Under the pieces are notes generated by a model. That model was not told the DNA's origin. It was given only the letters and a program-made list of their open reading frames with translations, and did no database searches. Positions 25,001 through 46,191 of a DNA stretch of 64,000 nucleotides are shown here, piece by piece. The position numbers and the translations under genes are program-made. Numbering within the stretch: position 1 is the stretch's first letter; each line of letters opens with the position of its first letter. The DNA comes from Celeribacter indicus (GTDB lineage: Bacteria > Pseudomonadota > Alphaproteobacteria > Rhodobacterales > Rhodobacteraceae), in NCBI RefSeq assembly GCF_000819565.1, contig NZ_CP004393.1, positions 4,030,001 to 4,094,000 on the forward strand, in the 5' to 3' direction.

Positions 25001-27769
25001 ATGCGAACGGATTTGGTCAGCCGGCGTGAAATTCGCTGTGATGGCACCATGACCCGCTCGCTTGAAAACCTCAGGCCCCCTGGCCCGCTGCTGTCGGAGT
25101 TCGAAGCCGGCACCCCTCCCGCGACCGGAGCCGAAGCCGTTCTGCGCGCGTGTTTCCTCGATGTTGCCGGCCGACAAGTCGCCGGGCTTGCCGCGCTGAT
25201 CTCCGGCGAGACGCCCGTCGCCGCCGTACCGCGCCACACGCGGTTCGCCGCCCTTCAGGCGGTGGGTGCCTGGCATCAGCTTAGGGCCATCGCCCAGGAA
25301 TTCGAGGCGATGCGCCATCGCCGCGAGGTCGAGCGTCTTTCCGGCGCGGCAGCCATTCCGGGCAGCTTTGCGCAGGTTCTGACCGAGGCCTCGCGCGGCG
25401 GATACAGCCCGGCAAAGATCGGGAAAGCCGTCGGGAGCCTGAGGATCGCACCGACCATGACGGCACATCCGACCGAGACCAAGCGCGTGACCGTTCTGGA
25501 AATTCACCGCCGGATCTACCGCCGCCTGACCGATCTGCTGACACGTCACTGGGCGTCCTCGGAGGAAGCCGGCTACCGGGACGCGCTCGCCGCCGAGGTG
25601 GAACTGCTCTGGCTGACCGGAGAGCTACGGCTGGAAAAACCCTCCGTCGCACAGGAGGTCGCGTGGGGGCTGCATTTCTTCGATCAGGTGCTCTTCGCCG
25701 CCCTGCCAACGCTGCACGACACGTTGCAGGCTGCCCTGCCGGAGGGTACAGGGGATGCCCTGCCCGATCGCTTCCTGCGCTTCGCCTCGTGGATCGGCGG
25801 TGACCGGGACGGCAACCACCATGTGACGGCGGAGGTGACACGGCAGGCGCTGGAAAGCTGCCGGCGGGCGGCGCTCGCCTCCTATCGTCCGCTCCTGGCC
25901 GAACTCGGGCGCGACCTGTCGGTCGGTGAAAGCGTCGCTGCGCTGCCCGACTGGTTCGGCCCGCGGCTGGCTGCACAGATCGAAGCCTGCGGCGCCGATG
26001 CCGACAGGCTCCGCGACCGCAATCCCGGCGAACCCTTCCGCCAATATGCCAACGCGCTGCTGTACCGGCTCGAAGCCACGATGGGCCAAAACGGCGCCGT
26101 GCCCTTCTCGGATCCCCGGCATCTGGCCGAGTTGCTGGGCGAGCTTTGCGCGGCGCTGGAGGCAGCGGGCGGCGCGCGCATCGCCCGCCGCAAGGTCGTG
26201 CCGCTGCTGCGCCGCGTGCGGGCCTTCGGGTTCCACGCCGTCGCGCTTGACATCCGCCAGAACGTCACGGTCATCAACCGCGCGGTGGCCGAACTGCTCG
26301 GCACCACGCCGAAGGATCCTCGCTGGAGCGAACGCCTCGGGTGCGCGTTCCGGGAGGCGGTTCCCGACCTCTCCGTCCGGGACGGGCTGTCGGAAGAAAC
26401 GCGCGAGACGATCACACTCTTCCGGCTGATCGCCGAGGTACGGCAGCGCGACCGCGAGGCGCTGTCGACCTTCGTGCTGTCGATGACCACCTCCGCCGAG
26501 GACATCCTTGCCGCCTATCTCATGGCGCATTGGTGCAGCGCAGCACCGGGCGCGGCAACCGATGCCGTGCCGCCGATCCAGATCGTGCCGCTGTTCGAGA
26601 CCATCGACGACCTGCGCGCCGCACCGGGCATTCTTGAAAAACTGCTGTCGCAGCGCCTCGTCCTGCGCGCCGTGCGTGACAACGGCGGCTGCCAGGAGAT
26701 CATGCTCGGCTATTCCGACAGCAACAAGGACGGCGGGTTTCTCACCTCCAACTGGGAATTGTCGCGGGCCCAGACGGCGCTGCACAGGGTGGCGGCACGG
26801 CATCGCGTGCGGCTGCGCTTCTTCCACGGTCGCGGCGGTTCGGTCAGCCGGGGCGGCGCACCGGCGAGTCGGGCCATCGCCGCGCAGCCGGCCGGGACGG
26901 TCGACGGCCAGTTGCGGGTGACCGAACAGGGCGAGATCGTGTCGGCAAAGTTCGCCAACCGGGGCACCGCGCTCGGCAATCTGGAATATCTGGCTGCGGC
27001 GGTCCTGTCGCACACGCTCGGCCTGCCGGCCCGGACACGGGACGCCGCGCCGCCGGTCGAGCAGGACGAGGCCTTTGAAGCCCTGTCGGGGGTGAGTCAC
27101 GTGGCCTATCTCAACCTCGTCCGGATGCCGGGGTTCGCCGATTATTTCCACGAGGCGAGCCCGGTGGACGAACTGGGCCTGCTCAAGATCGGTTCGCGAC
27201 CGGCGCGGCGTTTTGCCGGGGGCAAACGCGACCTCGACGCACTGAGGGCGATCCCGTGGGTCTTCGCCTGGAGCCAGAACCGCCACATGCTGACCGGCTG
27301 GTACGGCATCGGCTCGGCCATGCGGGCCTTCACCGACGTGCGCGGCGCCGAGGGCTGGTCCGTCCTGCACATGATGTTCGAACGCTCGCCGCTGTTCCGG
27401 CTTGTCGTGGACGAGGCGGAAAAGCTGCTGTTGCAGTCCGACATGGTGATCGCGGGGGAGTACGCCGGGCTGGTGCCCGACGCGGCGCTGCGCAACGCCG
27501 TACTGGGCAAGGTCCAGGCCGAACATGACCTGGCCTGCCACATGATCCTGAAGCTGACGGGCGAGGCCGCGCCCTGCTGCCGCTTTCCGCTCTTCCGGGA
27601 CCGCATCGAGGGATCGCGCGCACAGATGGCGGGGCTGCACCGCATGCAGGTTGAACTGCTGCGCGACGTGCGCGCCGCCGGCGGGCACGAGGCCGCGCCG
27701 AAACAGGATGTCGACGCGCTGCTGATGACCATACACGTCATATCCACCGGTCTGGGTTGGACCGGCTGA
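25001..27769 (+). CDS. ppc: Phosphoenolpyruvate carboxylase
   Basis: This roughly 922-residue enzyme carboxylates phosphoenolpyruvate to oxaloacetate, the CO2-fixing step of the serine cycle. Signature regions are present: [39 protein letters not shown] and [16 protein letters not shown]. The ATG at 25001 follows GGCGGCGAG; an ATG at 25049 gives a 906-residue protein and is an alternative. glyA starts 13 bases after the stop, so the two form an operon feeding C1 units into C4 acids. Confidence 0.93.
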
Positions 27770-27782
27770 AAGGGAGGACCAG

Positions 27783-29081
27783 ATGCATATCTCCAATACA
27801 GGACAAACGCCGCAGCGCGCCTTCTTTTCCGAAAGCCTCGCGACGCGCGACCCCGAGCTTTTTGCCATCACCGGGCGCGAACTCGGACGCCAGCGCGACG
27901 AGGTCGAGCTGATCGCCTCGGAAAACATCGTCAGCCGGGCGGTGATGGAGGCGCAGGGCACCGTGCTGACCAACAAATATGCCGAGGGCTATCCCGGCCG
28001 GCGCTACTATGGCGGCTGTCAGGTGGTTGACGAGGCGGAGACGCTGGCGCTGGAGCGGGCGAAGGCGCTGTTCGGTTGCGCCTGGGCCAATGTGCAGCCC
28101 AATTCCGGCAGCCAGGCGAACCAGGCCGCGTTCATGGCGCTGATGAAACCGGGCGACACCTTTCTGGGGCTGAACCTCGCCGCGGGCGGCCATCTGACGC
28201 ATGGCGCGCGGGTCAACCAGTCGGGAAGGTGGTTCAACGCCGTCGCCTACGACGTGCGGCAGGACGATCACCGCATCGACATGGAGGCGCTCGCGAAGCT
28301 GGCCCGCGACCACCGTCCGGCGCTGATCGTCGCGGGAGGATCGGCCTATGCCCGCCACATCGATTTCGCCGCGTTCCGCGAGATCGCGGACTCGGTGGGC
28401 GCGAAGCTCATGGTCGACATGGCGCATTTCGCCGGCCTCGTGGCGGGCGGCGTGCATCCGAGCCCCCTGTCCCACGCCCATGTGGTCACCTCGACCACCC
28501 ACAAGACGCTGCGCGGCCCGCGCGGCGGGCTGATCCTCTGCAACGACCCGGATCTGGGCAGGAAGCTCGATGCGGCCGTCTTTCCGGGGCTCCAGGGCGG
28601 GCCGCTCATGCATGTGATCGCCGCTAAGGCGGTGGCTTTCGGGGAGGCGCTGACGCCAGAGTTCCGCGACTATGCCGCGCAGGTCGTGGCCAATGCTGCG
28701 ATCCTGTCGCAGGTGCTGGCCAGCGGCGGGATCGACATCGTCTCCGGCGGGACCGACACGCATCTGATGCTGACCGACTTACGCGGCAAGGGACTGACCG
28801 GCAAGGCCGTCGAACAATCGCTCGGCCGCGCGCATATCACCTGCAACAAGAACGGCATTCCCTTCGACCCGCAGCCGCCCGCGGTCACCTCCGGCGTGCG
28901 CCTCGGAACCCCGGCCGTGACCACGCGCGGCTTTGCGGAGACGGAAATCCGCGAGATTGGCGCGCTGATCCTCGACGTCGTCGACGGGCTCGCCGCCTTG
29001 GGCGAGGAAGGCAACGGCGCCGTGGAGGCGCGGGTGCGCAGGACGGTACTCGACCTGCTCGCGGCATTCCCGATCTACTGA
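27783..29081 (+). CDS. glyA: Serine hydroxymethyltransferase
   Basis: This 432-residue PLP enzyme joins methylene-H4F and glycine to give serine, the entry point of the serine cycle. Motifs include [35 protein letters not shown] and the PLP lysine Lys241 in [25 protein letters not shown] precedes the ATG. Its place behind ppc and beside folD suggests a dedicated C1-assimilation copy; most genomes also carry a housekeeping glyA. Confidence 0.96.
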
Positions 29082-29113
29082 GGGCGCCGGCGCGTATTTC
29101 CCCGGCCGCCGTT

Positions 29114-30004
29114 TCAGGCGTTCCCCAGATCCGGAGCCGGAAGGCCGTGAATGCGGCAACAGGCCGTCAGCGTGTTGGACAGCAGGCAGGCAATGGTCAT
29201 GGGACCGACCCCGCCCGGCACAGGAGTGATCGCACCCGCCACGTCCGCCGCGCCGTCGTAGTCGACATCCCCCACCAGCCGGGTCTTGCCGCCTGCCGCG
29301 ATGCGGTTGATGCCCACGTCGATCACGGTGGCACCCGGCCTGATCCAGTCGCCGGGGATCATCCGCGGACGCCCGACGGCAGCCACGACGATATCGGCGC
29401 TACGGACCACCGCCCGCAGATCCCGCGTCCGACTGTGGGCGATGGTCACCGTGCAGTCGTCGGCCAGCAGCAGTTGCGCCATTGGCTTGCCGACGATGTT
29501 GGAGCGGCCCACGACCACCGCGCGCTTGCCCGCCAGCACGCCAAGCTCGGCCCGCAGCATCATGAGGCAGCCGAGCGGCGTACAGGGCACCATCGCCTCC
29601 TGGCCTGTCGACAGCCGTCCCGCGTTCACCACATGGAACCCGTCCACGTCCTTTTCGGGGGAAATGGCGTCGAGCACGTGCGCCGGGTCGATCTGTGGCG
29701 GCAGGGGCAATTGTACGAGAATGCCGTGAACGCGGACATCGGCGTTGAGCCGTCCAATCAGCGCCAGCAGGTCCGCCTCCGACGTGGTATCGGGGAGCCG
29801 GTGCTCGAAGCTCTCCATCCCCACCTCGACGGTCTGGCGACCCTTGGCGCGCACATAGACCTGGCTGGCGGGATCATCGCCCACCAGCACCACGGCGAGA
29901 CCTGGGGTCACACCGGCCCCGGACCTGATCCGATCCACCTCCGCGGCGACCCGCCGGCGAAGTTGCGCGGCAAAGGCCTTGCCGTCGATGATCCTCGCAC
30001 TCAT
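29114..30004 (-). CDS. folD: Methylene-H4F dehydrogenase / methenyl-H4F cyclohydrolase
   Basis: This 296-residue bifunctional enzyme oxidises methylene-H4F to methenyl-H4F and hydrolyses it to formyl-H4F. Visible motifs are the catalytic YVRAK, the QLPLP loop, EKDVDGFH, the NAD(P)-binding [12 protein letters not shown] and the C-terminal [11 protein letters not shown]. The ATG at 30004 gives the standard N-terminus [12 protein letters not shown]. folD and purU flank cmu genes in chloromethane degraders as well. It ends 32 bases from the end of glyA (convergent) and follows purU on the same strand. Confidence 0.96.
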
Positions 30005-30036
30005 GGCCTCTCTTCCCTCACTGGTCCCGCAGCGCA

Positions 30037-30885
30037 TCATTTGGCGAAGACCACGGTCTTGCTGCCGTTCATCAACACGCGGCGCTGGACATGCAGGTCC
30101 ACCGCCCGCGCCAGCACCCGGCGCTCGATGTCCCGACCCTTGCGGACGAGGTCGTCGGGCGTATCGGCATGGGTGACGTGTTCCACGTCCTGCGCGATGA
30201 TCGGCCCTTCGTCGAGATCCTCGGTCACGTAATGCGCTGTCGCGCCGATCATCTTCACGCCACGCACGTGCGCCTGATGGTAGGGCTTGGCTCCCTTGAA
30301 GCCGGGCAGGAAGGAATGGTGGATGTTGATGCAGCGCCCCGAGAGCCATGCCGAGAGATCATCCGACAGGATCTGCATGTAGCGCGCGAGCACAATGAGC
30401 TCTGCGCCCGTCTCCTCCACCAGCGCCTTGATCCGCGCCTCCTGCTGCGGCTTGGTCCCCGCCGTGACCGGCAGGTGGTGATAGGGGATGTCGTCGTTCA
30501 TCGGCAGGCCCAGCGCCTCACGGGGATGGTTGGAGCCGATGGCGACGATCTCGGCAGGCAATTCGCCAATGCGTTGCCGATAGAGAAGATCGGCGAGGCA
30601 GTGGTCGAATTTTGAAACCAGGATGAGCACCCTCGGCCGGTGGGCCGCATCTGTCACGCTCCAGTCGAGGCCGAGTCGGTCGCCGAGCTCCGCCATGCCC
30701 TCGCGCACGGGACCGCCGTCGCCGGGCACGCGGTAGGAGATGCGCGCGAAGAAATTGCCGGTCAGCGGATCGTCGAACTGCCGCGCCTCGGTGATATCGC
30801 CGCCGGCCTCGGCCAGCACGCCCGAGACGGCATGGACGATTCCGGGGCGATTGACGCATTTGAGCGTGAGAATCTGGTCGGTCAT
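30037..30885 (-). CDS. purU: Formyltetrahydrofolate deformylase
   Basis: This 282-residue enzyme releases formate from formyl-H4F. An N-terminal ACT domain (about 5-80) is followed by the formyltransferase-type catalytic domain with [19 protein letters not shown], the catalytic Asp region [15 protein letters not shown] and the [14 protein letters not shown] tail. In methylotrophs using the folate route it produces formate for energy. The start at 30885 gives the normal N-terminus [10 protein letters not shown]. First gene of the leftward purU-folD operon, under a promoter region with a TetR-type palindrome. Confidence 0.95.
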
Positions 30886-31032
30886 CTGATACTTGTGCCC
30901 TTTTCCTTCCGGCTCCCACCACCGGCGGGCCCGGACAGGCCCGCCGCCGCTTTCGGCCCGGTGCGCGCGCCGGATCGCCGGGTCACGCGCAGTCTCCTCC
31001 TGAACGCCGGTATCCCAGCGCGCCATCAGAAT

Positions 31033-31046
31033 AGACAGCTCTGTCT
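31033..31046. promoter_or_regulatory. TetR-type operator, purU side
   Basis: AGACAGCTCTGTCT: AGACAG and CTGTCT arms around a 2-base centre, within AATAGACAG...CTGTCTTTA. It shares the AATAGACAG arm with the palindromes at 31186 and 38166, but its spacing is four bases shorter. It lies 148 bases upstream of the purU start. Confidence 0.6.
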
Positions 31047-31185
31047 TTATTGTTGGAGAAACAGGGAAAGTATAGCCACCCAAACGGGTAGTTCTTCATT
31101 ACCAATTCCACGATTAAGGCCATTGTTCCGGTTGAAACGCGGTATTCCAGCCGTCTGCGCCCATCAGACCAGAAGAGTTATGAAT

Positions 31186-31201
31186 AGACAGATTGGTCTG
31201 T
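31186..31201. promoter_or_regulatory. TetR-type operator, serine-cycle side
   Basis: AGACAGATTGGTCTGT: ACAGA and TCTGT arms around TTGG, preceded by AAT. It has the same spacing as the cmuB operator and lies 52 bases upstream of the response-regulator gene. Confidence 0.65.
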
Positions 31202-31252
31202 TTTAGTCATGCTTGCAGCGGACCGGCCGGACGCGCCGGAGGGAGGATATGA

Positions 31253-31885
31253 ATGGACGAGGCGATCAGGGGCGAAACTGCCCCTTACAAGGTGTTTCTG
31301 GTCGAACCTAACCCGCTGGTCGTATCTGCGTTGGAGGTGCTCTTCGCCAGGGATCCGAGGTTCAGTTTGGCGGGAACGACGGAGAACGGTCGCGCCTTCC
31401 TCGACGGAGAGGGCATCGCGGGCGATCTGACGGTGCTGGCCTGGCAACTGGCGGACATGAGCGCGACCGAAGTGCTGAAAGAAATTCGCCGCCGTGAACA
31501 GGACACGAGAGTGGTGATCTTCTCCAACAAACGCGATCTCGGAACGATCCGTCAAGCGGTGCGGCTCGGCGCCTATGGCTATTGCTATCAGTTCGACGAT
31601 CCGTCGGTGCTGTTCGATACGCTGCACGCGGTGGCCAACGGGCGGATCTGCGTGCCCTTCATCGATGTCTCGACGATCAACGACAATCCTCTGTCCCAGC
31701 TAACGGTGCGGGAACGGGAGTTGCTGTCGGTGCTGGCGCGCGGCTGGACCAATCAGCAGATCGCCAATCGCACGGGCATCTCCGAGAACACGGTGAAATA
31801 CCACCTCAAGAACCTCTACGAAAAGCTCGGGGTCAGGAACCGCGCGATGGCGGTGGCGATCTATTCCCGCGAATCCGAGGCATAG
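31253..31885 (+). CDS. LuxR/NarL-type regulator with degenerate receiver domain
   Basis: This 210-residue protein has a receiver-like N-terminal half and a clear C-terminal LuxR-type helix-turn-helix (LTVRERELLSVLARGWTNQQI; NTVKYHLKNLYEKLGV). The residues needed for phosphorylation are missing: the acidic pair is Glu18-Pro19, the phospho-acceptor segment reads VLAWQL (61-66) without Asp, and the conserved Lys is Gln113. It probably senses a metabolite or partner rather than a kinase. It heads the sga-mcl-mtkAB-hpr operon and is its likely local regulator. Confidence 0.88.
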   Translation: MDEAIRGETAPYKVFLVEPNPLVVSALEVLFARDPRFSLAGTTENGRAFLDGEGIAGDLTVLAWQLADMSATEVLKEIRRREQDTRVVIFSNKRDLGTIRQAVRLGAYGYCYQFDDPSVLFDTLHAVANGRICVPFIDVSTINDNPLSQLTVRERELLSVLARGWTNQQIANRTGISENTVKYHLKNLYEKLGVRNRAMAVAIYSRESEA

Positions 31886-32018
31886 GCAGCGCCCGAACGG
31901 GTAGTGCGTCTTCGCCCCACGGGGCCGCAGATCCTGTCCGGGCGAGTGTTTGCCGGGCGGGGCGGGAACGCCATGCTGGTACAAGCGGAAATCGCATCAG
32001 TCCGAGGGAGGACCAGCC

Positions 32019-33209
32019 ATGGCAGGCTACAATCACCTTTTCATTCCGGGACCGACCAATGTGCCCGAACGCGTGCGGATGGCCATGAACGTGCCGATGC
32101 AGGACATGCGCGCACCCGATTTCGGAGATTTGACGATCCCGCTCTTCGAGAAGGTCAAGCAGGTCTTCCGCAACGAGACCGGCCGGGTCTTTCTCTATCC
32201 GTCCTCAGGCACCGGGGCATGGGAGGCGGCCATCCAGAACACGCTCAGCCCCGGCGACAAGGTATTGATGAGCCGCTTTGGACAGTTCTCGCATCTCTGG
32301 GTCGACATGGCGCGGCGGCTCGGCCTCGACGTCGACGTGATCGACCGCCCCTGGGGCGAAGGCGTGCCGGTAGAAGCCTACGCCGAGCGGCTGCGTGCCG
32401 ACAGGGCACGGGAATATGCCGCTGTCTTCGTCACCCACAACGAGACGGCAACCGGCGTCACCTCGGACGTGGGCGCAGTGCGCAAGGCGTTGGACGAGAC
32501 CGACCACCCCGCGCTGCTGATGGTCGACGGCGTCTCCTCGGTGGGTTCGATCCCCTTCGATCAGGAAGGGTGGCGCGTGGATTGCTGCGTTTCGGGATCG
32601 CAAAAGGGCTTCATGCTGCCTGCGGGGCTCGGGATCCTGTCAATCTCGAAATGGGCGCTCGATGCGCACAAGCGGGCCGGCTTTCCGCGGACCTTCTTTT
32701 CCTTCGAGGACATGATGGCCCATAACGATAACGGCTATTTCCCCTATACCCCGGCCACCCAGCTCCTGCGCGGGCTCGACGTATCCTGCGACATACTGCT
32801 GGAGGAAGGGCTCGAAACGGTCTGGGCCCGGCATCACCGGCTCGCCTCGGGCGTGCGCGCCGCGATCGACGCCTGGGGCCTGAAGCTCTGCGCGGCAGAG
32901 GAGAAATGGCAGTCCGACACGGTGAGCGCCGTCGTGGTGCCGGAGGAGGTGGACGCGCGCGACGTGATCGCGCGGGCCTATACCGCCTACGACACCTCGC
33001 TCGGCACGGGGCTGTCCAAAGTGATGGGCAAGGTCTTCCGCATCGGCCATCTGGGCTGGCTTAACGAAGGCATGGTGAACACCGCGCTGGCGGTCGCCGA
33101 AATGGCGATGATCGACAGCGGCATCGCCATCGAGCCGGGCTCGGGCGTCGGGGCCGCGATTGACCATTTCACCAGGACGCCAGCCGGCAAGATCGCCGAG
33201 GCGGCCTGA
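32019..33209 (+). CDS. sga: Serine-glyoxylate aminotransferase
   Basis: This 396-residue class-V aminotransferase converts serine and glyoxylate to hydroxypyruvate and glycine in the serine cycle. The PLP lysine is Lys196 in VSGSQKGFMLP; other signatures are IPGPTNVPERVR, YPSSGTGAWEA and MVDGVSSVGS. GGGAGGACCAGCC precedes the ATG at 32019. It is followed within 21 bases by the malyl-CoA lyase gene. Confidence 0.95.
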   Translation: MAGYNHLFIPGPTNVPERVRMAMNVPMQDMRAPDFGDLTIPLFEKVKQVFRNETGRVFLYPSSGTGAWEAAIQNTLSPGDKVLMSRFGQFSHLWVDMARRLGLDVDVIDRPWGEGVPVEAYAERLRADRAREYAAVFVTHNETATGVTSDVGAVRKALDETDHPALLMVDGVSSVGSIPFDQEGWRVDCCVSGSQKGFMLPAGLGILSISKWALDAHKRAGFPRTFFSFEDMMAHNDNGYFPYTPATQLLRGLDVSCDILLEEGLETVWARHHRLASGVRAAIDAWGLKLCAAEEKWQSDTVSAVVVPEEVDARDVIARAYTAYDTSLGTGLSKVMGKVFRIGHLGWLNEGMVNTALAVAEMAMIDSGIAIEPGSGVGAAIDHFTRTPAGKIAEAA

Positions 33210-33230
33210 CCGAGGAGCGGGAGCAGAGAC

Positions 33231-34181: not shown

Positions 34182-34184
34182 GCC

Positions 34185-38165: not shown

Positions 38166-38183
38166 AGACAGACTAGTCTGTCT
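38166..38183. promoter_or_regulatory. Perfect 18-bp TetR operator upstream of cmuB
   Basis: AGACAGACTAGTCTGTCT is a perfect palindrome, preceded by AAT like the two related sites near 31.0-31.2 kb. It lies 48 bases upstream of the cmuB start and overlaps the expected promoter (TTGCAT at 38152 could be its -35). TetR repressors of the NemR/AcuR kind bind AGAC...GTCT palindromes. Confidence 0.75.
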
Positions 38184-38231
38184 TTAAGAATCGGGCTGGA
38201 GGAGCCCGGAAAATATCAGGGAGGAAAGCAC

Positions 38232-39146
38232 ATGGCCGAGCCAAAGCCGGTCCGTATCGGAAATTGTGTCGTGGGCGGACCGCTCGGGTCGCATACCGGG
38301 CTCGCGGTGGGAAGCATCTTCTACGACAATCATTCCATCGTCGAAGATGCGTTCAAGGGAAGCTTCAACGCCGAAAAGGCCGCCGGTTTGATCGACCGGG
38401 TCAACGGACTCGCCCGGCGCCACGGCATCCAAATGGCCTTTGACGTGATCGGCTCGGATCCCGATGCCTTCTGCAAATTCATCGACTTCACCGCTGATCG
38501 GACCGATCTGCCGCTGCTGCTCAATGCGACCGAAGCCGAGGTGCGCATCGCGGGGCTCGAGTTCGCGGCAAAAAAGGGCATCCTCAACCGCGCGATCTTT
38601 GCCTCGCTCAACGAGGATACCGAGGACGAGGAGATCGAGGCGCTCGGGCGCCACAAGCCCGCCGCCGTGATGATCCTCGCCAATGACGTTGGCGATCCGA
38701 CGCCCGAAGGATCGATCGAGATGATCCGCTCCCATTTCCGGCCCATGCTCGACGAAATCGGCTGCGACTCCCCGATCGTGGACCTGGGGGTGATGGACGC
38801 GCCCTCGGTCGGGATCGCGATGCGCGGCATCCAAGCGGTGCGTGAGGAATTCGGCTATCCCGCGGGCTGCGCCTTTTCCAACTGCTTCCCGCAGTGGACC
38901 GGGCTCAACTCGCTCGGCAAGGATTACGTCAACCTCTCGCTCGCCACGGCGATGGTCTGCTGCCGCATGGCGGGGGGCGATTTCCTGCATTACGGCATCA
39001 TCGAGAAATCCCGCGCGATGGCCCATGCGCTCGGTTCGGCCGAGGTGTTCCTCGGCTTCGCGGCGATGGAACTGGACGGCCAGCAGCTTCCCGAGGGTCA
39101 CGCGCTGCTGAAGATGTTCAAGCTGGCCGAGGCCAAGGCCGCATGA
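38232..39146 (+). CDS. cmuB: Methylcorrinoid:tetrahydrofolate methyltransferase CmuB
   Basis: This 304-residue protein is of the MtrH family. The diagnostic opening VRIGNCVVGGPLGSHTG and VGSIFYDNHSIVEDAFKG are present. In chloromethane degraders CmuB moves the methyl group from the corrinoid of CmuA to tetrahydrofolate. A GGGAGGAAA ribosome site precedes the ATG. It heads the order cmuB-cmuC-cmuA-fmdB-paaE-hutI-metF, as in Hyphomicrobium/Methylobacterium. Glycine-betaine-type MtgA proteins are related, but the downstream CmuA settles the call. Confidence 0.92.
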   Translation: MAEPKPVRIGNCVVGGPLGSHTGLAVGSIFYDNHSIVEDAFKGSFNAEKAAGLIDRVNGLARRHGIQMAFDVIGSDPDAFCKFIDFTADRTDLPLLLNATEAEVRIAGLEFAAKKGILNRAIFASLNEDTEDEEIEALGRHKPAAVMILANDVGDPTPEGSIEMIRSHFRPMLDEIGCDSPIVDLGVMDAPSVGIAMRGIQAVREEFGYPAGCAFSNCFPQWTGLNSLGKDYVNLSLATAMVCCRMAGGDFLHYGIIEKSRAMAHALGSAEVFLGFAAMELDGQQLPEGHALLKMFKLAEAKAA

Positions 39147-40369
39147 GCGCCGGACCGCATATGCTGGCGCAGACACTGCGCGAGAGGGTGCCGGTCGATA
39201 TCGGCACCAGCTCGCTCACCGCGGTGCGCGCCACCGCCATCCCTGGCCGCCACGTGCCCAACGTCGCGCATCCGGTGTACGAGACGCTGCCGCTCGCCGC
39301 CGGTGAATGTGCCGCGCTTGGCTCGGACTTCCAGCGCGTCGGACCGCTTTGGCCGCGGCCCGGCCGGCAGGAGGAGGAGCTGACCGATGCCTATGGCGTC
39401 GCCTGGCTCGAACACGAGGGCAACAGAGCGCCCTTTCGGCATCCTCTGGAGCAGGCCGAATGGGGTCATCTGGCCCGCCATCCCCGCCCCGCGCTGCCCG
39501 AGCACGTACAGCTTGCCCAGGACACGCCTGCGCTGATGACGGTACTCGATGCGCCCTGCCCCGGCCTGCTCGACACCTGTTTCCTGCTGCGCAACGGCTG
39601 GCAGTTCATGACGGATCTGACCGAGGATTTCCGCGTCGCGAGCGCGCTGCTCGACTGGGCGCTGGACACGATCGAGGCCTCCTATGACGCGGTGCTGGCA
39701 GCGCTGCCGGAAGATCCGGACGTGATCATCTATGGCGACGATCTCGGCTTCGAATCCGGCATGTACCTGTCCGACCTGGATTTCCGCAACTTCATCTTTC
39801 CACGTCTCCAGACCTTGCTGACCCGGCTGCGCCGCAAGTCCGGCGCCTTGCTCTGCTTTCATTCCTGCGGCGCGATCCGGTCGATCTGCGGCGATCTGGC
39901 GGAGCTGGGCGTGGACATGATGAACCTCGATTTCTACGCCAAGAACATGATCTTGGCCGATGTCCGCAAGGCACTGCCCAAAGACATGATCCTTCACGGG
40001 CCGGTCAACCTCGCCGCCATCGGTCGCGCGGTGGAGAACGCCGACGGTGCCGCGCTGGCGATCCTCTCCGAGGAAGTCGCCAATGCCGCGCCCTGCATCG
40101 TAGCGCCCATCGACAGCATCGGCAGCTACGAGGACGCCCGGCACAACTTTCGCGGCGCAGCCTTTGTCCGGGCGCTTTCGACCGAAGATCTCAGGGCTCT
40201 GCGCAGATACGGGCCGATCAAGCATGTGATCGACAGGGCGGCGGCCGAGGCGTCGGGCTGTCAGATGCCCGAACTGGGACTCCAAGAAATCCGGATCGGG
40301 ACGATGCCGCGGCACGCCGCCGCTCCCGATATGCGGGGCCGGTCCGGCGACCGCCCGCGCATTGTCTGA
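39143..40369 (+). CDS. cmuC: CmuC, UroD-family putative methyltransferase
   Basis: This 408-residue protein belongs to the uroporphyrinogen decarboxylase/MtaA methyltransferase family. It is recognised by its place between cmuB and cmuA and by LCFHSCGAIRSICGDLAELG, with the His-x-Cys of the family zinc site. CmuC is required for growth on chloromethane in Methylobacterium, but its exact step is unclear. The start overlaps the cmuB stop by four bases (ATGA), which supports it against longer in-frame readings. Confidence 0.9.
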   Translation: MSAGPHMLAQTLRERVPVDIGTSSLTAVRATAIPGRHVPNVAHPVYETLPLAAGECAALGSDFQRVGPLWPRPGRQEEELTDAYGVAWLEHEGNRAPFRHPLEQAEWGHLARHPRPALPEHVQLAQDTPALMTVLDAPCPGLLDTCFLLRNGWQFMTDLTEDFRVASALLDWALDTIEASYDAVLAALPEDPDVIIYGDDLGFESGMYLSDLDFRNFIFPRLQTLLTRLRRKSGALLCFHSCGAIRSICGDLAELGVDMMNLDFYAKNMILADVRKALPKDMILHGPVNLAAIGRAVENADGAALAILSEEVANAAPCIVAPIDSIGSYEDARHNFRGAAFVRALSTEDLRALRRYGPIKHVIDRAAAEASGCQMPELGLQEIRIGTMPRHAAAPDMRGRSGDRPRIV

Positions 40370-40393
40370 AGCCTGAACCAGGGAGGAAATGGA

Positions 40394-42244
40394 ATGGCAC
40401 AGCAAATGACCAGCCGCGAAAGGGTTTTCGCGGCCGTCACGATGACCGAATTGCCCGACCAGGTGCCCGTCGTGCCGCTGCTCATGACCCGCGGCATCCG
40501 CGAGGGCGGCGTGCGCGTGGACGAGGTTCTGCTCGACGGCGAGGCACAGGCCCATGCCAAGAAGAAGTCGCTCGACAAGTTCGGCGGCGATGTGATCATC
40601 GCGGGCACCGATCTGTTCACCCCGGTCGAATGCGTTCCGGGCTGCGAACTGGACTATCTGCCCTATGCCCAGCCCTCGCTGGTCACCCATCCGACGCCGA
40701 CGAAGGAGGCATTCTACCGCTTCAAGGAGAAATACGAGAAGGAGGGCTTCCAGCCGTCGAAGCGCGTTCGCGCCATCCAGGACGAGATCCGCACCTATGT
40801 GAAAATGGGGCTGAAGGATACCCATGCTATCCCCACGCCGGTCGGCGGCCCGATCACCACGGCGCAGCTCATGACCGGGTCATCGGAATTCCTGCAATTG
40901 CTCTCGGACGATCCGGACTATGCGCATGAGGTGACCAAACTGGCGCTCGATATCGTCAAGAACGTCTGCCGCATGATGTTCGAGGCGGGGGCGGACGTGT
41001 GCAACATCCTCGATCCGTTCAACTCGTCCGACATCCTGCCGCCGGAGGTCTATCGCGAGCACGGGCTTCCCTATCAGAAGGAACTGTTCCGCTACATCAA
41101 CGAGGATCTGAAGGGCATCGGCTTTACCCACACCTGCACCTTCACCCAGCCAATCTGGCGCGACATCGCCGGCAACGGGTGCCTCAACTTCAACGGCGAC
41201 ATGTATCCCGGCATGGACAAGTGCAAGCAGGCCATCGGGGGGCAGATTTCGCTGATGGGCACGCTCTCCCCCTATTCCACGCTGATGCACGGCTCCACCG
41301 ACGCCGTGCGCAACGAGGTCAAGAAGCTGGCAGCCGAAGTCGGCTACAACGGTGGCTTCATCTGCATGCCGGGCTGTGACATCGACTGGAACATTCCCGA
41401 AGAGAACATGCACGCGATGATCCAGCAATGCGCCGAGATCAAGTATCCGATGGATGTCGCCGCGCTCGGAGATCTCTCGGAAGTCTATCTTCCCGGCCAT
41501 CCCAAACATCCGGGCAAGCGGTCCTCCTCGGCCGAGGAAGACCAGAGCGTCACCAAGTTGAAGTCCCGCAGCGAAGATCTCTCACCCGTCGAGGAGGTCA
41601 ATCAGAAGCTGGTCGAGGCGATCATGGAATACGACGGCGAAAAGGCCATCGAATGGACGAAGAAGGGGCTCGAGCGGGGCATGACCGCACAGGACATCGT
41701 CTTTGACGGCCTGTCGCTCGGTATGAAGATCGTCGGCGACATGTACGAGCGCAACGAGCGCTTCGTGACGGACATGCTCAAGGCCGCCAAGACGATGGAC
41801 AAGGCGATGCCGGTGCTGACCCCGCTGCTCGAAGCCGCCGGCGACGGCGACGGCCCGACCGGAACCGTGGTGGTCGGCCTGGTGCGCGGCAATACCCAGG
41901 ACATCGGCAAGAATCTGGTGTGCCTGATGCTCAAGGCGAACGGCTTCAACGTCATCGACCTTGGCAAGAACGTGAAACCCGAGCAGTTCGTCGAGACCGC
42001 CGAGAAGGAGAATGCCATCGCCATCGGCATGTCGGTGATGACCAACTCCTCGTCTGTCTACGTCGAGAAGACTAAGCAGCTTCTCGAAGAGCAGGGCAAG
42101 GGCGACAAGTACCTGCTGATGTTCGGCGGTGCTGCCGCGAATGTCGGCCTGGGACGTCAGATCGGCGTCGAGTATGGCATCGACGCCAATGCCGCGGTGA
42201 GCCTTGTGAAGGACCATGTCGCGAAGCGGGCGACGGCCGCCTGA
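40394..42244 (+). CDS. cmuA: Chloromethane:corrinoid methyltransferase CmuA
   Basis: This 616-residue fusion is the key enzyme of chloromethane use. Residues 1 to about 380 form a UroD/MtaA-type methyltransferase with a probable zinc site (His246 and Cys248 in THTCTF, Cys at 324/328). Residues about 395-616 are a methionine-synthase-like helical cap plus B12-binding domain. The expected cobalt-ligand motif DxHxxG reads NTQDIG (500-505), so the His is Gln502. SVMTNSS and FGGAAANVG match the later corrinoid motifs. This two-domain fusion is diagnostic of CmuA. GGGAGGAAA lies upstream. Confidence 0.95.
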   Translation: MAQQMTSRERVFAAVTMTELPDQVPVVPLLMTRGIREGGVRVDEVLLDGEAQAHAKKKSLDKFGGDVIIAGTDLFTPVECVPGCELDYLPYAQPSLVTHPTPTKEAFYRFKEKYEKEGFQPSKRVRAIQDEIRTYVKMGLKDTHAIPTPVGGPITTAQLMTGSSEFLQLLSDDPDYAHEVTKLALDIVKNVCRMMFEAGADVCNILDPFNSSDILPPEVYREHGLPYQKELFRYINEDLKGIGFTHTCTFTQPIWRDIAGNGCLNFNGDMYPGMDKCKQAIGGQISLMGTLSPYSTLMHGSTDAVRNEVKKLAAEVGYNGGFICMPGCDIDWNIPEENMHAMIQQCAEIKYPMDVAALGDLSEVYLPGHPKHPGKRSSSAEEDQSVTKLKSRSEDLSPVEEVNQKLVEAIMEYDGEKAIEWTKKGLERGMTAQDIVFDGLSLGMKIVGDMYERNERFVTDMLKAAKTMDKAMPVLTPLLEAAGDGDGPTGTVVVGLVRGNTQDIGKNLVCLMLKANGFNVIDLGKNVKPEQFVETAEKENAIAIGMSVMTNSSSVYVEKTKQLLEEQGKGDKYLLMFGGAAANVGLGRQIGVEYGIDANAAVSLVKDHVAKRATAA

Positions 42245-42309
42245 GCCTCGAGCAAGGGGGCTCCCGCATCCGGGGCAGGAGAGGGAACCTCATCCCGAAA
42301 GGAGAAGCG

Positions 42310-42624
42310 ATGCCGATCTACACCTTCCGATGCGAGGATTGCGACGCGGAGCGCGAGGTCATGGCGGAGTTCGCCGAGGCCGAGGCGCTGGAGCTTCTGT
42401 GCTTCGCCTGCGGTGGCACGATGCGGCGGGCGCCGGTGATGACGCTCAATGTCATCGGCCCCGCGATCCGCGCGAAGAATGCCGAAAGGGCCTCCGAAGA
42501 GAGGGCTTACTTCGCCAAGGCCTGCGGCCACACCCATGCCTGCCGCTGCGGGGTGAAACTGACCCGGCAGAACCCGTTCAGGCAGGAAATCCGCGCCGCG
42601 CACGGGTTTACCGACGAGAACTGA
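42310..42624 (+). CDS. fmdB: FmdB-type zinc-ribbon protein
   Basis: This 104-residue protein has an N-terminal CxxC...CxxC zinc ribbon (CEDC at 8-11, CFAC at 31-34) with the FmdB opening MPIYTFRCEDC, and a C-terminal Cys/His cluster CGHTHACRCG. FmdB proteins are regulatory or accessory; the role in chloromethane use is not known. It occupies the fmdB position of the canonical cmu cluster, with AAAGGAGAAG upstream. Confidence 0.9.
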   Translation: MPIYTFRCEDCDAEREVMAEFAEAEALELLCFACGGTMRRAPVMTLNVIGPAIRAKNAERASEERAYFAKACGHTHACRCGVKLTRQNPFRQEIRAAHGFTDEN

Positions 42625-42705
42625 CCGGCACCGCGCAAGACACGACCGACTGCAAGATGATCTGGGAACACCGCCTGTACGCGCGTTTCCCGGCAAGGAG
42701 GATTT

Positions 42706-43797
42706 ATGGCCACCTATCCGCTCAAGGTTTGCGAAAAACGCATGGAGTGCAACGACACGGCAAGCCTGTGGCTGGATGTGCCACAGGATCTGGCCGGCGC
42801 CTTTACCTACCGGCCGGGGCAATTCCTGACCGTGGAAAACGACGACGGCGGCGATCTGATCTCGCGGCAATATTCGTTGTCGTCCTCGCCCGGCGCCCAT
42901 CCCAGACTGCGTATCACCGTAAAAAAGATCGAGGGCGGGCGTATGTCCACCTGGCTCGTGGATCAGGCCGGAGAGGGCGACTATCTCGAGGTCCAGACCC
43001 CGCGCGGCCGCTTCTTCAAGGATCTGGACGCGCCGCATCACGTCCTGATGCTCGCCGCCGGGTCGGGCATCGCGCCAATCCTGTCGATCGGTCGCTGGCT
43101 GCTGGAATCAAACCAGGGCCACACCGTCACCTTCGTTTACGGCAACCGGACCCCCGACACGGTGATCCTGGCCGACGAGATGGCCGAGATCGCCGAACGC
43201 CATGCCGGAATCTGCCGGATCGAACACGTGATGAGCCGCGCGGGAGAGGACTGGACCGGCGCCCATGGTCGCATCGACCGCGCCTATATCGAGGCGCATT
43301 TTGCCAGCTGGCAGGCCGCATCCGAGCTGCCGATGGTGGCCTATATGTGCGGCCCCGAAGGCTTCATGGATTCCGCCGAGGGCGCGCTGATGAGCGCCGG
43401 GCTCTCCGCCTCCGCAATCCACCGCGAAAGCTTCGACATGGTGCTGGAGGACGATGAAACCGAACCGGGCCTCGAAGTGGTCGCCGAAGACGATCCCGGC
43501 GAAGATGGTCCGCCCGCCACGATCGTCGCCGTCGTCGGAGGCGAGGAATACGAAGCCGACTGGCAGGAGGGCGAGAACATCCTCGCCGCCCTGCTGCGCA
43601 TGGATGCGGACGTCCCCTTCTCCTGCCAGGAAGGCACCTGTTCCTCCTGCATCTCCAAGCTGACCGCCGGGCGGATCGAAGTGCGTCCCGGTGTGCTGCA
43701 AACGCTGCGAGAGGACGACCTTGCCGAAGGGCTGACCCTCGCCTGCCTGTCGCGCCCACTCACCCGCACCATCCGCATTGATTTCGACGAGATCTGA
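42706..43797 (+). CDS. paaE: PaaE-like ferredoxin-NAD(P)H reductase fused to 2Fe-2S ferredoxin
   Basis: This 363-residue protein has an N-terminal FAD/NAD reductase (FAD motif RQYSLSSSPG, NAD region AAGSGIAPILSIGRW) and a C-terminal plant-type ferredoxin with CQEGTCSSC and a distant fourth Cys. It can pass electrons from NAD(P)H to a partner; in the cmu cluster a role in reducing the cobalt of CmuA to Co(I) is an attractive inference. AAGGAGG precedes the ATG and hutI starts 3 bases after its stop. Confidence 0.9.
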   Translation: MATYPLKVCEKRMECNDTASLWLDVPQDLAGAFTYRPGQFLTVENDDGGDLISRQYSLSSSPGAHPRLRITVKKIEGGRMSTWLVDQAGEGDYLEVQTPRGRFFKDLDAPHHVLMLAAGSGIAPILSIGRWLLESNQGHTVTFVYGNRTPDTVILADEMAEIAERHAGICRIEHVMSRAGEDWTGAHGRIDRAYIEAHFASWQAASELPMVAYMCGPEGFMDSAEGALMSAGLSASAIHRESFDMVLEDDETEPGLEVVAEDDPGEDGPPATIVAVVGGEEYEADWQEGENILAALLRMDADVPFSCQEGTCSSCISKLTAGRIEVRPGVLQTLREDDLAEGLTLACLSRPLTRTIRIDFDEI

Positions 43798-43800
43798 GCC

Positions 43801-45015
43801 ATGCACAATTCCCTTCTGCTGACCAACCTGCACTTGCTCACGCTCGAGGGCGAAACGCCCGCGACAGACCCGCTTCCCGATGCGGTGGTCGCCATCGAGG
43901 ACGGGCAGTTCACCTATGCCGGTCCGAAGGCCGGGTTTCGGGGCGACCTGTCGGCGGCGCGCGACATGGGCGGTGCGCTGGCCCTACCGGGGCTGGTGGC
44001 CTGCCACGCGCCGCTGCTCTGGCTTGGCGAGGCCGCGCCCCCTGCCTCGCTCGACGCCACGGAATACCGTGCGCTCGCCCGTCGGGTGGCCGAAGCGACC
44101 ACCCGTGCCGATGAGAACGCGCTGCTCTCGGCGCTCGACGAACGGATCGCCCGGCTGCGTCGCTCCGGCGTAACGGCCTGCGAACTGAAATGCGGCTTTG
44201 GCGCGACCGCAACGGACGAACTTCGGCTGACCGCGCTCCTGCGCCGGGCCGCAGGAGATCTGCCCGTGCAAAGCCGCATCACGCTTTTCATCGGACACCA
44301 GTTTCCCGAGGACAGCGATCCGGATGAAGTCCTTGCCGGGATCGAAACCACAATCGTGCCGGAAACCTACGCCCTCGGCTGTGCCGACGCCGTGGAGGTG
44401 TTCTGCGACGAGGACGCGGCGCTCGATCTCGACCAATGCTCGACCATCCTCGAACTCTACTACAAAAAGAAGACGCCAAGCCGGGTCTCCTGCGACCGGT
44501 TCGAGGATGCCGCGGGCGCGACGCTGCCCGCCTCCTTCTATTCCCGTGCCGCCACCTTCCTGAACCACACCGACGAGACGGGGCTCGACGGCCTCGCACG
44601 CGTCGGAACGGTGGCTGTTCTGATCCCCGAAGCAATGGAGCGCGATACCGGAGCGCCGGCACCGCGGCTGGACGTGCTACGCGCCTCCGGCGCACGCATC
44701 GCGTTGTCGGTCCACGCCGGCCCGGACGGCGGCGACTTCGACATACTGGCAGCGATGCGCGCCGGGTACCGGCGGCTCGGCCTCACGCCCGCGGAATGCC
44801 TTCTCGGTGTGACGCGGCACGCGGCCAGGGCGCTGGGGCTCGACGACAGTGCTGGTGTGATCGCGCCAGGCCGCCCAGCCGATCTCGCCCTCTTCGGAGC
44901 ACAGACTCCTTCCGACCTCGTTACCGGCGACGCCGACTGTCTCGCGGTCATCCGCAATGGTGCGCTGGAGGTCTTCGACCAAACCCTTAGCCAAGGATTG
45001 ACCGCCAATGCCTGA
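43801..45015 (+). CDS. hutI: HutI-like amidohydrolase homologue with lost metal ligands
   Basis: This 404-residue protein resembles imidazolonepropionase and sits at the hutI place of the cmu cluster. The zinc-binding HxH that normally follows the first strand reads PGLVACHAPLL, so the second His is Pro, and the later His and Asp regions (VSCDRFEDA, ALSVHAGPDG) do not keep the usual ligands. It is therefore unlikely to act as an imidazolonepropionase. Its function in chloromethane metabolism is unknown. It overlaps metF by eight bases. Confidence 0.85.
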   Translation: MHNSLLLTNLHLLTLEGETPATDPLPDAVVAIEDGQFTYAGPKAGFRGDLSAARDMGGALALPGLVACHAPLLWLGEAAPPASLDATEYRALARRVAEATTRADENALLSALDERIARLRRSGVTACELKCGFGATATDELRLTALLRRAAGDLPVQSRITLFIGHQFPEDSDPDEVLAGIETTIVPETYALGCADAVEVFCDEDAALDLDQCSTILELYYKKKTPSRVSCDRFEDAAGATLPASFYSRAATFLNHTDETGLDGLARVGTVAVLIPEAMERDTGAPAPRLDVLRASGARIALSVHAGPDGGDFDILAAMRAGYRRLGLTPAECLLGVTRHAARALGLDDSAGVIAPGRPADLALFGAQTPSDLVTGDADCLAVIRNGALEVFDQTLSQGLTANA

Positions 45016-45865
45016 AGCAAGCCTGTCCGTGCTCCCCGCCCGCCTGATCGACGGCGACATCTCCCTCGAACTGCCGCCGGACGCAGTCGACAAGTTCAGG
45101 CCGGACGCGAAGGTGCTGTCGCCGGGAGCCAAGGTCTTTCTGCCGCATCTGGAAGGCAAACCCCCGGAGCAGCAGGTCGCGGCGGCGAAGGCGTTGATCG
45201 ATATGGGCTACACACCCGTCGTGCATCTGGGCGCGCGCCATTTCGCCACCGAGGCCGATTTCGTTCGGCATCTGGAGGCGCACAGCGCCAACGGCGTGAC
45301 CCATGCACTGTTTCTCGGCGGCAATCCCGCGCGGTATTCCGGCCCCTTCGGGCAGGCGCTCGACCTGCTGCACCATCCGTCTCTGCACGACAGCGGCATA
45401 CGCAGGGCCTTCCTCGGCGGCTATCCCGAGGGACATCCCGACATTTCCGAAGACAGGCTCGACGCGGCGCTCTCAGCGAAGATCGACCGTTGTCACGACA
45501 TCGGGCTTGCCCCTGAGGTCGTCACGCAATTCGCCTTTGACGGCGAGGTTCTGGCAGGTTTCGCATGGAGGATGCAGGCGCGGCATCCCGATGTGCCCGT
45601 CCGTCTCGGCCTCGCCGGCGTGACCTCGCTTCCCAAGCTGATCCGCTACGCGATCATGTGCGGCGTCGGACCGTCGCTTTCGGTGCTGAAGAAATCGTCC
45701 GGCAAACTCCTCGGCGTGCTCGCCGACAAGGACCCGTCGGATGTGGCCAACGTCATCGAGCAGCGGATCACGGATCACGACGGGCGCGTCGAGTTGCATT
45801 TCTTTCCCTTTGGGGGATGGCAGAAGACGCTCGACTGGCTTCAGCGCTATCGGGAGACGCCATGA
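45008..45865 (+). CDS. metF: Methylenetetrahydrofolate reductase-like MetF of the cmu cluster
   Basis: This 285-residue protein is a MetF-type TIM barrel; in chloromethane degraders it works in the oxidative direction, turning methyl-H4F from CmuB into methylene-H4F. Family features include PVVHLGARH, THALFLGGNPARYSG and the LGVLADKDPSD region. It is divergent from housekeeping MetF, as in other cmu clusters. Its product feeds GlyA and FolD encoded 15-18 kb upstream. The start lies inside hutI; the stop overlaps the next ORF. Confidence 0.9.
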   Translation: MPEASLSVLPARLIDGDISLELPPDAVDKFRPDAKVLSPGAKVFLPHLEGKPPEQQVAAAKALIDMGYTPVVHLGARHFATEADFVRHLEAHSANGVTHALFLGGNPARYSGPFGQALDLLHHPSLHDSGIRRAFLGGYPEGHPDISEDRLDAALSAKIDRCHDIGLAPEVVTQFAFDGEVLAGFAWRMQARHPDVPVRLGLAGVTSLPKLIRYAIMCGVGPSLSVLKKSSGKLLGVLADKDPSDVANVIEQRITDHDGRVELHFFPFGGWQKTLDWLQRYRETP

Positions 45866-46191
45866 CCTGCGCGCATGGAGGACCTGCGGCACCGGCGATG
45901 CCCGTGGGCCGCTTCCTGAAGCGGGACGAAATTCGGCAGCTCAAGCGCAAGTGCCGGGAGCGGAATGCCGATGCGGCACTCGTACTGCTTGAACACAGCA
46001 TTCGGTGCGGTCACCGACGCCTGGCCCTGCGGCGCCTTTTCGTCGCGCTGGAGCTTGGTGCGATCTGCACGTCGAGGCATATGCGATATTGCCACTTCGT
46101 TGCCAGAGCCTACAGCCCGGTGGAACTAGATGAAATCCGCCGGGGCGCGCTGAGCGACACCGCCGACAGGAGCCAAACCCGGCCCCCGTAA
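45862..46191 (+). CDS. Small basic protein translationally coupled to metF
   Basis: I do not recognise this 109-residue protein. Its ATG overlaps the metF stop (ATGA), so it belongs to the cmu operon. It is rich in Arg and has several Cys/His (MTCAHGG, SIRCGH, GAICTSRH, MRYCHF). The canonical cmu clusters known to me end at metF, so it may be a local addition. A nucleic-acid- or metal-binding accessory role would fit its composition, but this is a guess. Confidence 0.6.
   Translation: MTCAHGGPAAPAMPVGRFLKRDEIRQLKRKCRERNADAALVLLEHSIRCGHRRLALRRLFVALELGAICTSRHMRYCHFVARAYSPVELDEIRRGALSDTADRSQTRPP

Follow-up and report, generated by a model that had tools for sequence, protein, structure and literature searches.

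Chloromethane contributes to stratospheric ozone loss. In its degradation by the cmu route, CmuA and CmuB carry the methyl group to tetrahydrofolate (H4F), giving methyl-H4F, which MetF turns into methylene-H4F; FolD and PurU lead on to formate, and GlyA is the entry to the serine cycle. Since chloromethane carbon enters as methyl-H4F, its assimilation needs no formate–H4F ligase (FtfL). The present article concerns a stretch of 64,000 nucleotides from Celeribacter indicus (contig NZ_CP004393.1, positions 4,030,001 to 4,094,000; G000:C1:4030001-4094000 in our numbering), termed the window, which belongs to a 4.53-Mb contig of a 4.97-Mb genome and in which a cmu cluster adjoins a cassette of serine-cycle genes.

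The cmu route is the best-characterised bacterial pathway of chloromethane degradation, and degraders without cmu genes also exist (PMC9080209). According to a paper of 2017, the determinants that regulate cmu expression remain to be identified (PMC5585157). Methylobacterium strains that receive the cmu cluster of Hyphomicrobium sp. MC1 become able to grow on chloromethane (PMC4949252). Methylotrophy islands that contain amine genes have also been described, and their transfer has been proposed to convert non-methylotrophs (PMC4543880; further literature basis: PMC5934484, PMC4197683, PMC13222342). The cluster of MC1 (pJM105, KT950741) has the same order as the window, cmuB-cmuC-cmuA-fmdB-paaE-hutI-metF, and also contains purU and folD, with proteins 33–81% identical. 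However, its cloned segment carries neither serine-cycle genes nor the palindrome AGAC-N6-GTCT, and its purU–folD pair lies 3′ of metF and not inside a serine cassette as in the window. In Methylobacterium CM4, unlike in the window, cmuA and cmuB are about 33 kb apart on pCMU01. An earlier note on this DNA had assigned the order to both genera; it is that of MC1 and not that of CM4, and the claim of a contiguous island of cmu and serine-cycle assimilation genes, set apart from CM4, stands.

The island spans positions 25049 to 45865, from the start of ppc to the end of metF, as delimited by gene calling and family searches. Its order is ppc, glyA, folD (minus strand), purU (minus), luxR, sga, mcl, mtkA, mtkB, hpr, tetR (minus), cmuB, cmuC, cmuA, fmdB, paaE, hutI, metF. 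It is likely an acquired chloromethane methylotrophy island of two halves, both of them under one TetR-type regulator, as its gene content and shared operator-like sites suggest.

Operator-like sites and the TetR-type regulator

Three operator-like sites are found in the window. AGACAGACTAGTCTGTCT (38166..38183) lies in the tetR–cmuB spacer, where the same place is conserved in eight genomes, and scores 24.4 bits with an 18-mer matrix trained on the tetR–cmuB sites of seven other genomes, the window being left out. AGACAGATTGGTCTGTTT (31186..31203) lies 5′ of the luxR–sga unit and is the second-best matrix match of the 64 kb, with 19.8 bits as opposed to 11.1 for the third. AGACAGCTCTGTCT (31033..31046) is a perfect palindrome beside the start of purU; it is phase-shifted relative to the matrix and reaches only 9–11 on it. 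The maximum of 15 Markov shuffles was 14.2, and neither 24.4 nor 19.8 was attained in a 6-Mb Markov background. Alignment of the spacer from eight genomes exhibits a single conserved palindrome, AGACAG-N4-GTCT; AGAC-N6-GTCT is exact in seven of the eight, with the site of a Kiloniellales metagenome-assembled genome (MAG) deviating. The pattern AGACAGNNNNGTCT has five matches in the window, counting both strands, at three places (0.01 expected), and the looser AGACNNNNNNGTCT, written later, has four (0.45 expected). All pattern matches of the window are confined to two intergenic regions, tetR–cmuB (38166/38170) and purU–luxR (31033 and 31186). A scan for sigma-70 promoters at the operator sites gave none, with 1.5 expected, and is uninformative.

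The stricter pattern AGACAG-N4-GTCT, derived from the window and the spacer alignment, was then counted in other stretches. Read on either strand, it occurs at the divergent serine promoter, between luxR and ftfL or purU, in all four fused alphaproteobacterial islands: the window, Aminobacter ciceronei (two places), the Rhodobacteraceae MAG RH-23may17-568 (one place; hereafter RH MAG), and Gemmobacter caeni (one place). The looser pattern has two sites at this promoter of the RH MAG. Neither pattern is present in 16 control stretches, comprising two from Actinobacteria, whose tetR is only 46% similar, and 14 alphaproteobacterial stretches with serine cassettes. The latter are six plasmids (from Aminobacter, Sinorhizobium, Phyllobacterium, Paracoccus, Pararhizobium, and Ruegeria), the cassettes of two genomes of other genera (G067 and G161), second cassettes of Aminobacter, Gemmobacter, and the RH MAG, and cassettes of Roseovarius, Ruegeria, and Kiloniellales. 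For each region, one looser match or more has a probability of 0.002–0.006 by chance. Among 75 intergenic regions longer than 60 bp in the stretches of the four islands, ten contain a looser site, and eight of these ten are the two promoters. Further exact sites occur at L104:6288 and L105:3942 of the RH MAG and, within genes, at L106:6246 and L009:17384.

The gene tetR (37356..37949, minus strand; Pfam TetR_N), for which the name CmuR is proposed, is encoded between the two halves as the candidate repressor of both. A structural model of the protein, built from seven sequences, has a mean predicted local distance difference test score of 87.1; its closest folds are TetR-family regulators, the best being SCO4454 of Streptomyces with a template-modelling score of 0.82. 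Hence, both the fold and the helix-turn-helix domain of the family are present. Homologues of tetR lie divergent from cmuB in six other genomes, and Gemmobacter has a fragment at the contig end. In the Kiloniellales homologue the recognition region reads SKQSLYNHY, as opposed to AKASLYKHF, in the same genome in which the site deviates. The conserved palindrome is found at the promoter of tetR itself and at those of the proposed targets. Because it is shared by the promoters of both halves, a single TetR repressor probably governs the cmu and serine halves, and the shared operator suggests one regulon. The same sites are the basis in sequence for the idea that sga, mcl, and cmuA may be expressed jointly.

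Further sites lie, in two genomes, near genes suggestive of cofactor supply. In Aminobacter, an exact site at L107:10938 is located 5′ of a TonB-receptor gene, near a further copy of tetR and genes that resemble those for B12 uptake (L107:8684-11497). In Ruegeria, exact sites at positions 64 and 214 of L005 lie at the 5′ side of a cobU/cobT-like unit and beside a transposase-like open reading frame (ORF). From these sites the regulon may include cofactor supply.

Gene content and predicted route

The earlier note had placed the island at 25001..46191, and every gene that it named is found at 25049–45865. Its right border is to be moved inward, as metF ends at 45865 and the ORF that extends to 46191 has no family match. 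In addition, its gene list had overlooked the response regulator between purU and sga. The ORFs of the island are intact, with family matches from 31 to 684 bits, of which MetF is the weakest; the genes are therefore beyond chance.

The serine half starts with ppc (25049..27769, plus strand; phosphoenolpyruvate carboxylase, NCBIfam PRK00009.1 with 683.6 bits, under the cut-off of 815) and glyA (27783..29081, plus; serine hydroxymethyltransferase, PRK00011.1 with 614.5 bits, above cut-off). These are followed on the minus strand by folD (29114..30004; methylene-H4F dehydrogenase/cyclohydrolase, Pfam PF02882 and PF00763 above cut-off, 56% identical to FolD of CM4 and 49% to that of MC1) and purU (30037..31026; formyl-H4F hydrolase, PF00551 and ACT). 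With 58% identity over 84% of its length, the latter resembles PurU of CM4 and thus looks like the cmu type. The LuxR/NarL-type response regulator (31253..31885, plus; Pfam Response_reg and GerE, NarL-type) is kept 5′ of sga in the RH MAG, Gemmobacter, contig 18 of Aminobacter, G067, and G161. The plus strand continues with sga (32019..33209; serine–glyoxylate aminotransferase, PDB 6pk1, E=3e-117), mcl (33231..34181; malyl-CoA lyase, PDB 5ugr, E=6e-115), mtkA (34185..35363; malate–CoA ligase beta subunit, PRK14046.1 with 678 bits at a cut-off of 604), and the adjoining mtkB (35377..36276; alpha subunit, succinate–CoA ligase alpha family, 431 bits). The half ends with hpr (36284..37252, plus; hydroxypyruvate reductase, D-2-hydroxyacid dehydrogenase families under their cut-offs, PDB 1gdh D-glycerate dehydrogenase, E=1e-62). 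Hence, sga, hpr, mtkA, mtkB, mcl, ppc, and glyA all occur together. BhcA and a β-hydroxyaspartate cycle in place of the serine cycle were considered for sga and rejected: the BhcA model gives 578 bits versus a cut-off of 650, no other bhc gene is present among the scanned island genes, and the sole PDB match at E<=1e-40 is serine–glyoxylate aminotransferase.

The cmu half lies entirely on the plus strand. CmuB (38232..39146; methylcobalamin:H4F methyltransferase of the MtrH type, NCBIfam PRK00979.1-1 with 371 bits) is 68% identical to its MC1 counterpart, and the URO-D-type protein CmuC (39161..40369; Pfam URO-D) 45%. CmuA (40394..42244; chloromethane:corrinoid methyltransferase, NCBIfam mtaA_cmuA with 422.8 bits) is 81% identical to CmuA of MC1 and 78% to that of CM4. 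It contains both the methyltransferase domain and a C-terminal corrinoid-binding domain, with GNTQDIG at residue 499 replacing the usual His-type corrinoid motif; a glutamine at this position is presumably typical of CmuA. The zinc-ribbon protein FmdB (42310..42624; Pfam Zn_ribbon_8), a PaaE-like ferredoxin reductase (42706..43797; PA_CoA_Oxy5 with 248 bits, under cut-off, 55% to MC1 PaaE), and a HutI-like amidohydrolase (43801..45015; hutI with 171 bits, under cut-off) follow. The last gene is metF (45008..45865), a divergent cmu-type methylene-H4F reductase with only 31 bits to NCBIfam fadh2, under cut-off, and 45% identity to MetF of MC1 and 30% to MetF2 of CM4; MetF is described as divergent in cmu bacteria (PMC3621897). 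Hence, CmuB, CmuC, and a divergent MetF are in the cluster and purU is near. Among those genes of the window that were scanned, there are none for methylated-amine oxidation; cmu stands in their place.

From these assignments the following route is proposed. CmuA and CmuB would pass the methyl group of chloromethane or bromomethane to H4F, and MetF would oxidise methyl-H4F to methylene-H4F. FolD and PurU would burn a part of the latter to formate for energy, and GlyA would channel the remainder into the serine cycle, with Sga, Hpr, Ppc, MtkAB, and Mcl supplied by the same island. The host would contribute a formate-dehydrogenase-like enzyme, a candidate glycerate kinase, and ethylmalonyl-CoA genes. 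In this scheme TetR would bind AGACAG-N4-GTCT at the cmuB promoter and at the divergent purU and luxR–sga promoters, and in the presence of a methyl halide, or of a product of its metabolism, both halves would be derepressed together.

The statement of the earlier note that the whole route is packed into the island is nearly right: homologues of the glycerate kinase gene gck are found outside it in the genome, as are ethylmalonyl-CoA genes and a gene of formate-dehydrogenase type. A gck gene is located 3′ of hpr in the RH MAG, Gemmobacter, and Aminobacter contig 18 (confirmed by Pfam for Gemmobacter only), in the first two between hpr and tetR. In Paracoccus aminophilus, gck is reported to be likewise outside the cluster (PMC4543880). 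One gck homologue of the host adjoins genes for a molybdopterin oxidoreductase that resembles formate dehydrogenase and for a zinc alcohol dehydrogenase; the latter is read as a glutathione-dependent formaldehyde dehydrogenase. The genome also contains ccr above cut-off with a B12-dependent mutase gene adjoining, as well as two further Mcl homologues (51% and 41%). Formate–H4F ligase (PF01268) has no match in the host genome, and four of 14 control genomes match it, three above cut-off. In G067, G161, Gemmobacter, the RH MAG, and Aminobacter contig 18, ftfL occupies the position of purU (Pfam-confirmed for Gemmobacter). The replacement of ftfL by purU would commit surplus one-carbon units to formate.

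Occurrence and history of the island

Counting the genome itself each time, cmuA (E<=1e-100) is present in two of 394 genomes of the family, one of 390 of the order, and two of 385 of the class, and in none of the five congeners listed. MtkA is found only in the genome of the window among 20 of the genus: 18 others give a SucC-like match of 49–51% only, and one, which is 85% complete, gives none at E<=1e-60. The case that the earlier note had named as damaging, namely serine-cycle genes at this locus in close relatives devoid of cmu, was thus not encountered among the 19 other genus genomes searched for MtkA and the five listed congeners searched for cmuA. In the family, 93 of 384 genomes, including that of the window, have MtkA at E<=1e-140, mostly 62–69% identical. 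The 83–84% type occurs in G067 and G161, which carry the same serine cassette in different surroundings and have no cmuA match. G067 has a gene for a pyrroloquinoline quinone (PQQ)-dependent, methanol dehydrogenase-like alcohol dehydrogenase (L155:6690-8441) about 10–13 kb from the cassette, which may serve methanol there.

Two peptide patterns of CmuA, run over a collection of species genomes, gave at least 18 loci, a sample that is not exhaustive: seven in Desulfo-, Thermo-, and Firmicutes-type bacteria and 11 in others. In five of these 11, cmu and serine genes are linked, and in one more, Gemmobacter caeni, this is likely. Here the serine contig begins in tetR and the cmu contig just 5′ of cmuB, and adjacency is inferred because the contig break lies inside tetR. 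A single contig carries both cmu and mtkA in the RH MAG, in Aminobacter ciceronei, where hpr and cmuB are 13 kb apart, in Pseudonocardia endophytica, and in Roseovarius pacificus, where a cassette of a different type has mtkA 24 kb from cmuB on what is putatively the same contig. Actinomycetospora has cmuB–paaE with serine genes and cmuA on another contig. In the Kiloniellales MAG and in Ruegeria (R. spongiae cmuA contig NZ_JAMFMB010000045), cmu and mtkA are on separate contigs; matches to mtkA are weak in the OFTM225 MAG (only 54%, other contig) and Notoacmeibacter (only 47%), and a Rhizobiales MAG with a cmuA locus has none. The arrangement is not peculiar to this genome: it recurs in the RH MAG, in the Aminobacter contig, and, across the contig break, in Gemmobacter caeni, and is rearranged in two Actinobacteria. 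Near the metF side, VirB/Trb-type (type IV) secretion genes are seen in the RH MAG (L103), Gemmobacter caeni (L007), and Aminobacter ciceronei (L108), which suggests conjugative carriers.

The actinobacterial clusters of Pseudonocardia (L110-L112) and Actinomycetospora (L113, L013) run in one direction: metF-like, cmuB, paaE, ftfL, glyA, ppc, sga, mcl, mtkA, mtkB, hpr, gck-like, and hutI-like. The metF-like genes are 32–34% identical, the Pseudonocardia copy having no Pfam match; in Pseudonocardia only, a DHPS-like gene was seen by eye between ftfL and glyA. MerR genes adjoin the actinobacterial cmuCA. The motif ACGYNNACGTAAGR occurs 5′ of cmuC, the metF–cmuB run, and hutI, and only in these two genomes among 163 partly overlapping loci; it was spotted by eye and then counted, so that it carries less weight than the operator of the Alphaproteobacteria. 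A second, unrelated regulatory fusion in Actinobacteria is thus possible. An AGAC-N6-GTCT site at Pseudonocardia L110:18666, 5′ of a gene between the cmuCA and cmuB–serine groups, was not used. These clusters offer a testable genetic basis for the Pseudonocardiaceae that were labelled at low abundance in 13C-amended forest-soil microcosms (PMC6194010).

Trees were calculated from concatenated Sga-Mcl-MtkA-MtkB and CmuB-CmuC-CmuA-PaaE. Both agree on the sole split that is possible with four fused islands, RH MAG and Gemmobacter versus window and Aminobacter. The cmu genes of the window are closest to those of Roseovarius pacificus (support 100, identity 76–95%), in whose fetched stretches the present type of serine cassette is absent. 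G067 and G161 lie inside the serine-cassette clade, with a support of 58 for the exact place. This pattern fits either an old fused island with occasional loss of one half or repeated joining of the modules.

A horizontal acquisition, as proposed here, is favoured by the presence of MtkA in one of 20 genus genomes and by a transposase remnant beside the island. The remnant is split and lies 2.3 kb right of metF (48156..49129, plus strand; Pfam DDE_3 at 48644-49129, HTH_32 under cut-off at 48156-48557), and an MFS transporter is likewise to the right; genes for an ABC transporter and a peptidase of family M24 lie to the left of the island. Farther left, at 8.1–16.1 kb (8107–16130), a block with a TRAP transporter, a dihydroorotate-dehydrogenase-like gene, and an M20 peptidase has DNA matches of 76–82% in nine congeners and resembles a native pyrimidine or hydantoin catabolism locus. 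After this block, no island genes follow in the stretches from four of the nine congeners and from the genome G540 (filter of 45% identity and 50% coverage). G540 has counterparts of the genes at 16.4–24.4 kb (46–74%) and then no island genes for the next 24 kb. Only a part of the left flank is native. A search of congeners for an empty site flanked on either side was discarded, as the left side alone matched. As for marks of insertion, neither the window nor the stretches on its two sides hold a transfer RNA gene, and repeats, among the 20 of 22 direct families listed, are only short and imperfect. Separate from the island, positions 51823–63240 and the adjoining L149 hold a siderophore-like cluster with a nonribosomal peptide synthetase-type protein, an ornithine/lysine monooxygenase, a phosphopantetheinyl transferase, and a sigma factor; ABC- and receptor-like genes were seen in L149 by eye.

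Competing explanations and known systems

The two modules could be mere neighbours, the serine cassette serving other one-carbon substrates under the LuxR-type regulator, to which the operator at the serine promoter would then belong. The LuxR-type gene indeed adjoins the sites at this promoter, and G067, with its PQQ alcohol dehydrogenase gene, and G161 have the cassette and this regulator and no cmuA. However, both keep the regulator at 70–73% identity and have no exact site at that promoter (none of two), so that the operator tracks tetR and not the LuxR-type regulator. Moreover, the operator is present beside tetR–cmuB in Roseovarius, Ruegeria, and Notoacmeibacter, where this cassette type is not seen. 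This explanation is therefore unlikely. Still less probable is a relict or weakly functional island, used for scavenging or detoxification, with methyl groups passed to H4F for energy only and no net assimilation. Its appeal lies in the gck gene that relatives have in their islands and the window lacks, in the missing ligase match, and in the transposase remnant. Against it speak the intact ORFs, the two gck homologues, ccr, and the adjoining mutase gene in the genome, and the established pathway by which chloromethane carbon bypasses FtfL.

The reading of an acquired island with both halves under one TetR thus remains the preferred one, and several observations weigh against it. The pattern AGAC-N6-GTCT was written after the sites had been seen. 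The serine promoter of Gemmobacter has a single site with a matrix score of only 10.0, and lone exact sites lie away from the cassette in G161 (L154:241) and Pseudonocardia (L110:18666). The cloned segment of Hyphomicrobium MC1 and a 48-kb part of pCMU01 of CM4 contain no operator site; operator regulation is therefore not common to all cmu bacteria. No gck is present between hpr and tetR in the window, and the two host homologues of the Gemmobacter gene, outside the island, are only 51% and 43% similar to it, with Pfam support for one. Finally, closely related cmu genes occur in Roseovarius and Ruegeria where this type of cassette is absent, so that the two halves have not travelled as a unit in every case.

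A wider proposal can be put forward tentatively, with slightly more doubt than confidence: TetR would be the methyl-halide-responsive regulator of cmu, dehalogenation and assimilation would be fused in one transferable regulon to which B12 genes were added in Aminobacter and Ruegeria, and a separate fusion via ACGYNNACGTAAGR would exist in Actinobacteria. The tetR gene and the three sites make the question of cmu regulation directly testable, at least in these Alphaproteobacteria. If the halves form one regulon, a single transfer could make a methyl halide methylotroph from a heterotroph that has ethylmalonyl-CoA genes and formate dehydrogenase; if the switch is shared, the trait would be a nearly self-contained, transferable package.

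Serine-cycle genes are likewise packed with one-carbon oxidation genes in the methylotrophy islands of Paracoccus sp. N5 and Roseobacter (PMC4543880). The island of P. aminovorans (PMC8235418) likewise has a response regulator beside sga, and its MtkA is 68% identical to that of the window; AGACAG-N4-GTCT is absent from the P. aminovorans stretch. In all of these, however, the entry module is methylated-amine oxidation and not cmu. Contig 18 of Aminobacter ciceronei DSM 15910, a putative plasmid with cmu, replication, and transfer genes (PMC8235418), combines serine cassette and cmu with the same operator at both promoters. It differs from the window in that some 13 kb with B12-uptake-like and other genes separate the halves, that ftfL is retained, and that gck is present. 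The RH MAG (CANJQT010000020) has nearly the same island including the operators, and differs by ftfL in place of purU, by gck between hpr and tetR, and by type IV secretion genes nearby. In the accessible literature, from which subscription journals are mostly missing, no description was found of cmu and the serine cycle in one cluster or of a TetR regulator of cmu. The enzymes and a cmu cluster are already known; new in comparison are that cmu is fused with a dedicated serine cassette, that this fusion recurs, and that the operator is shared by both halves.

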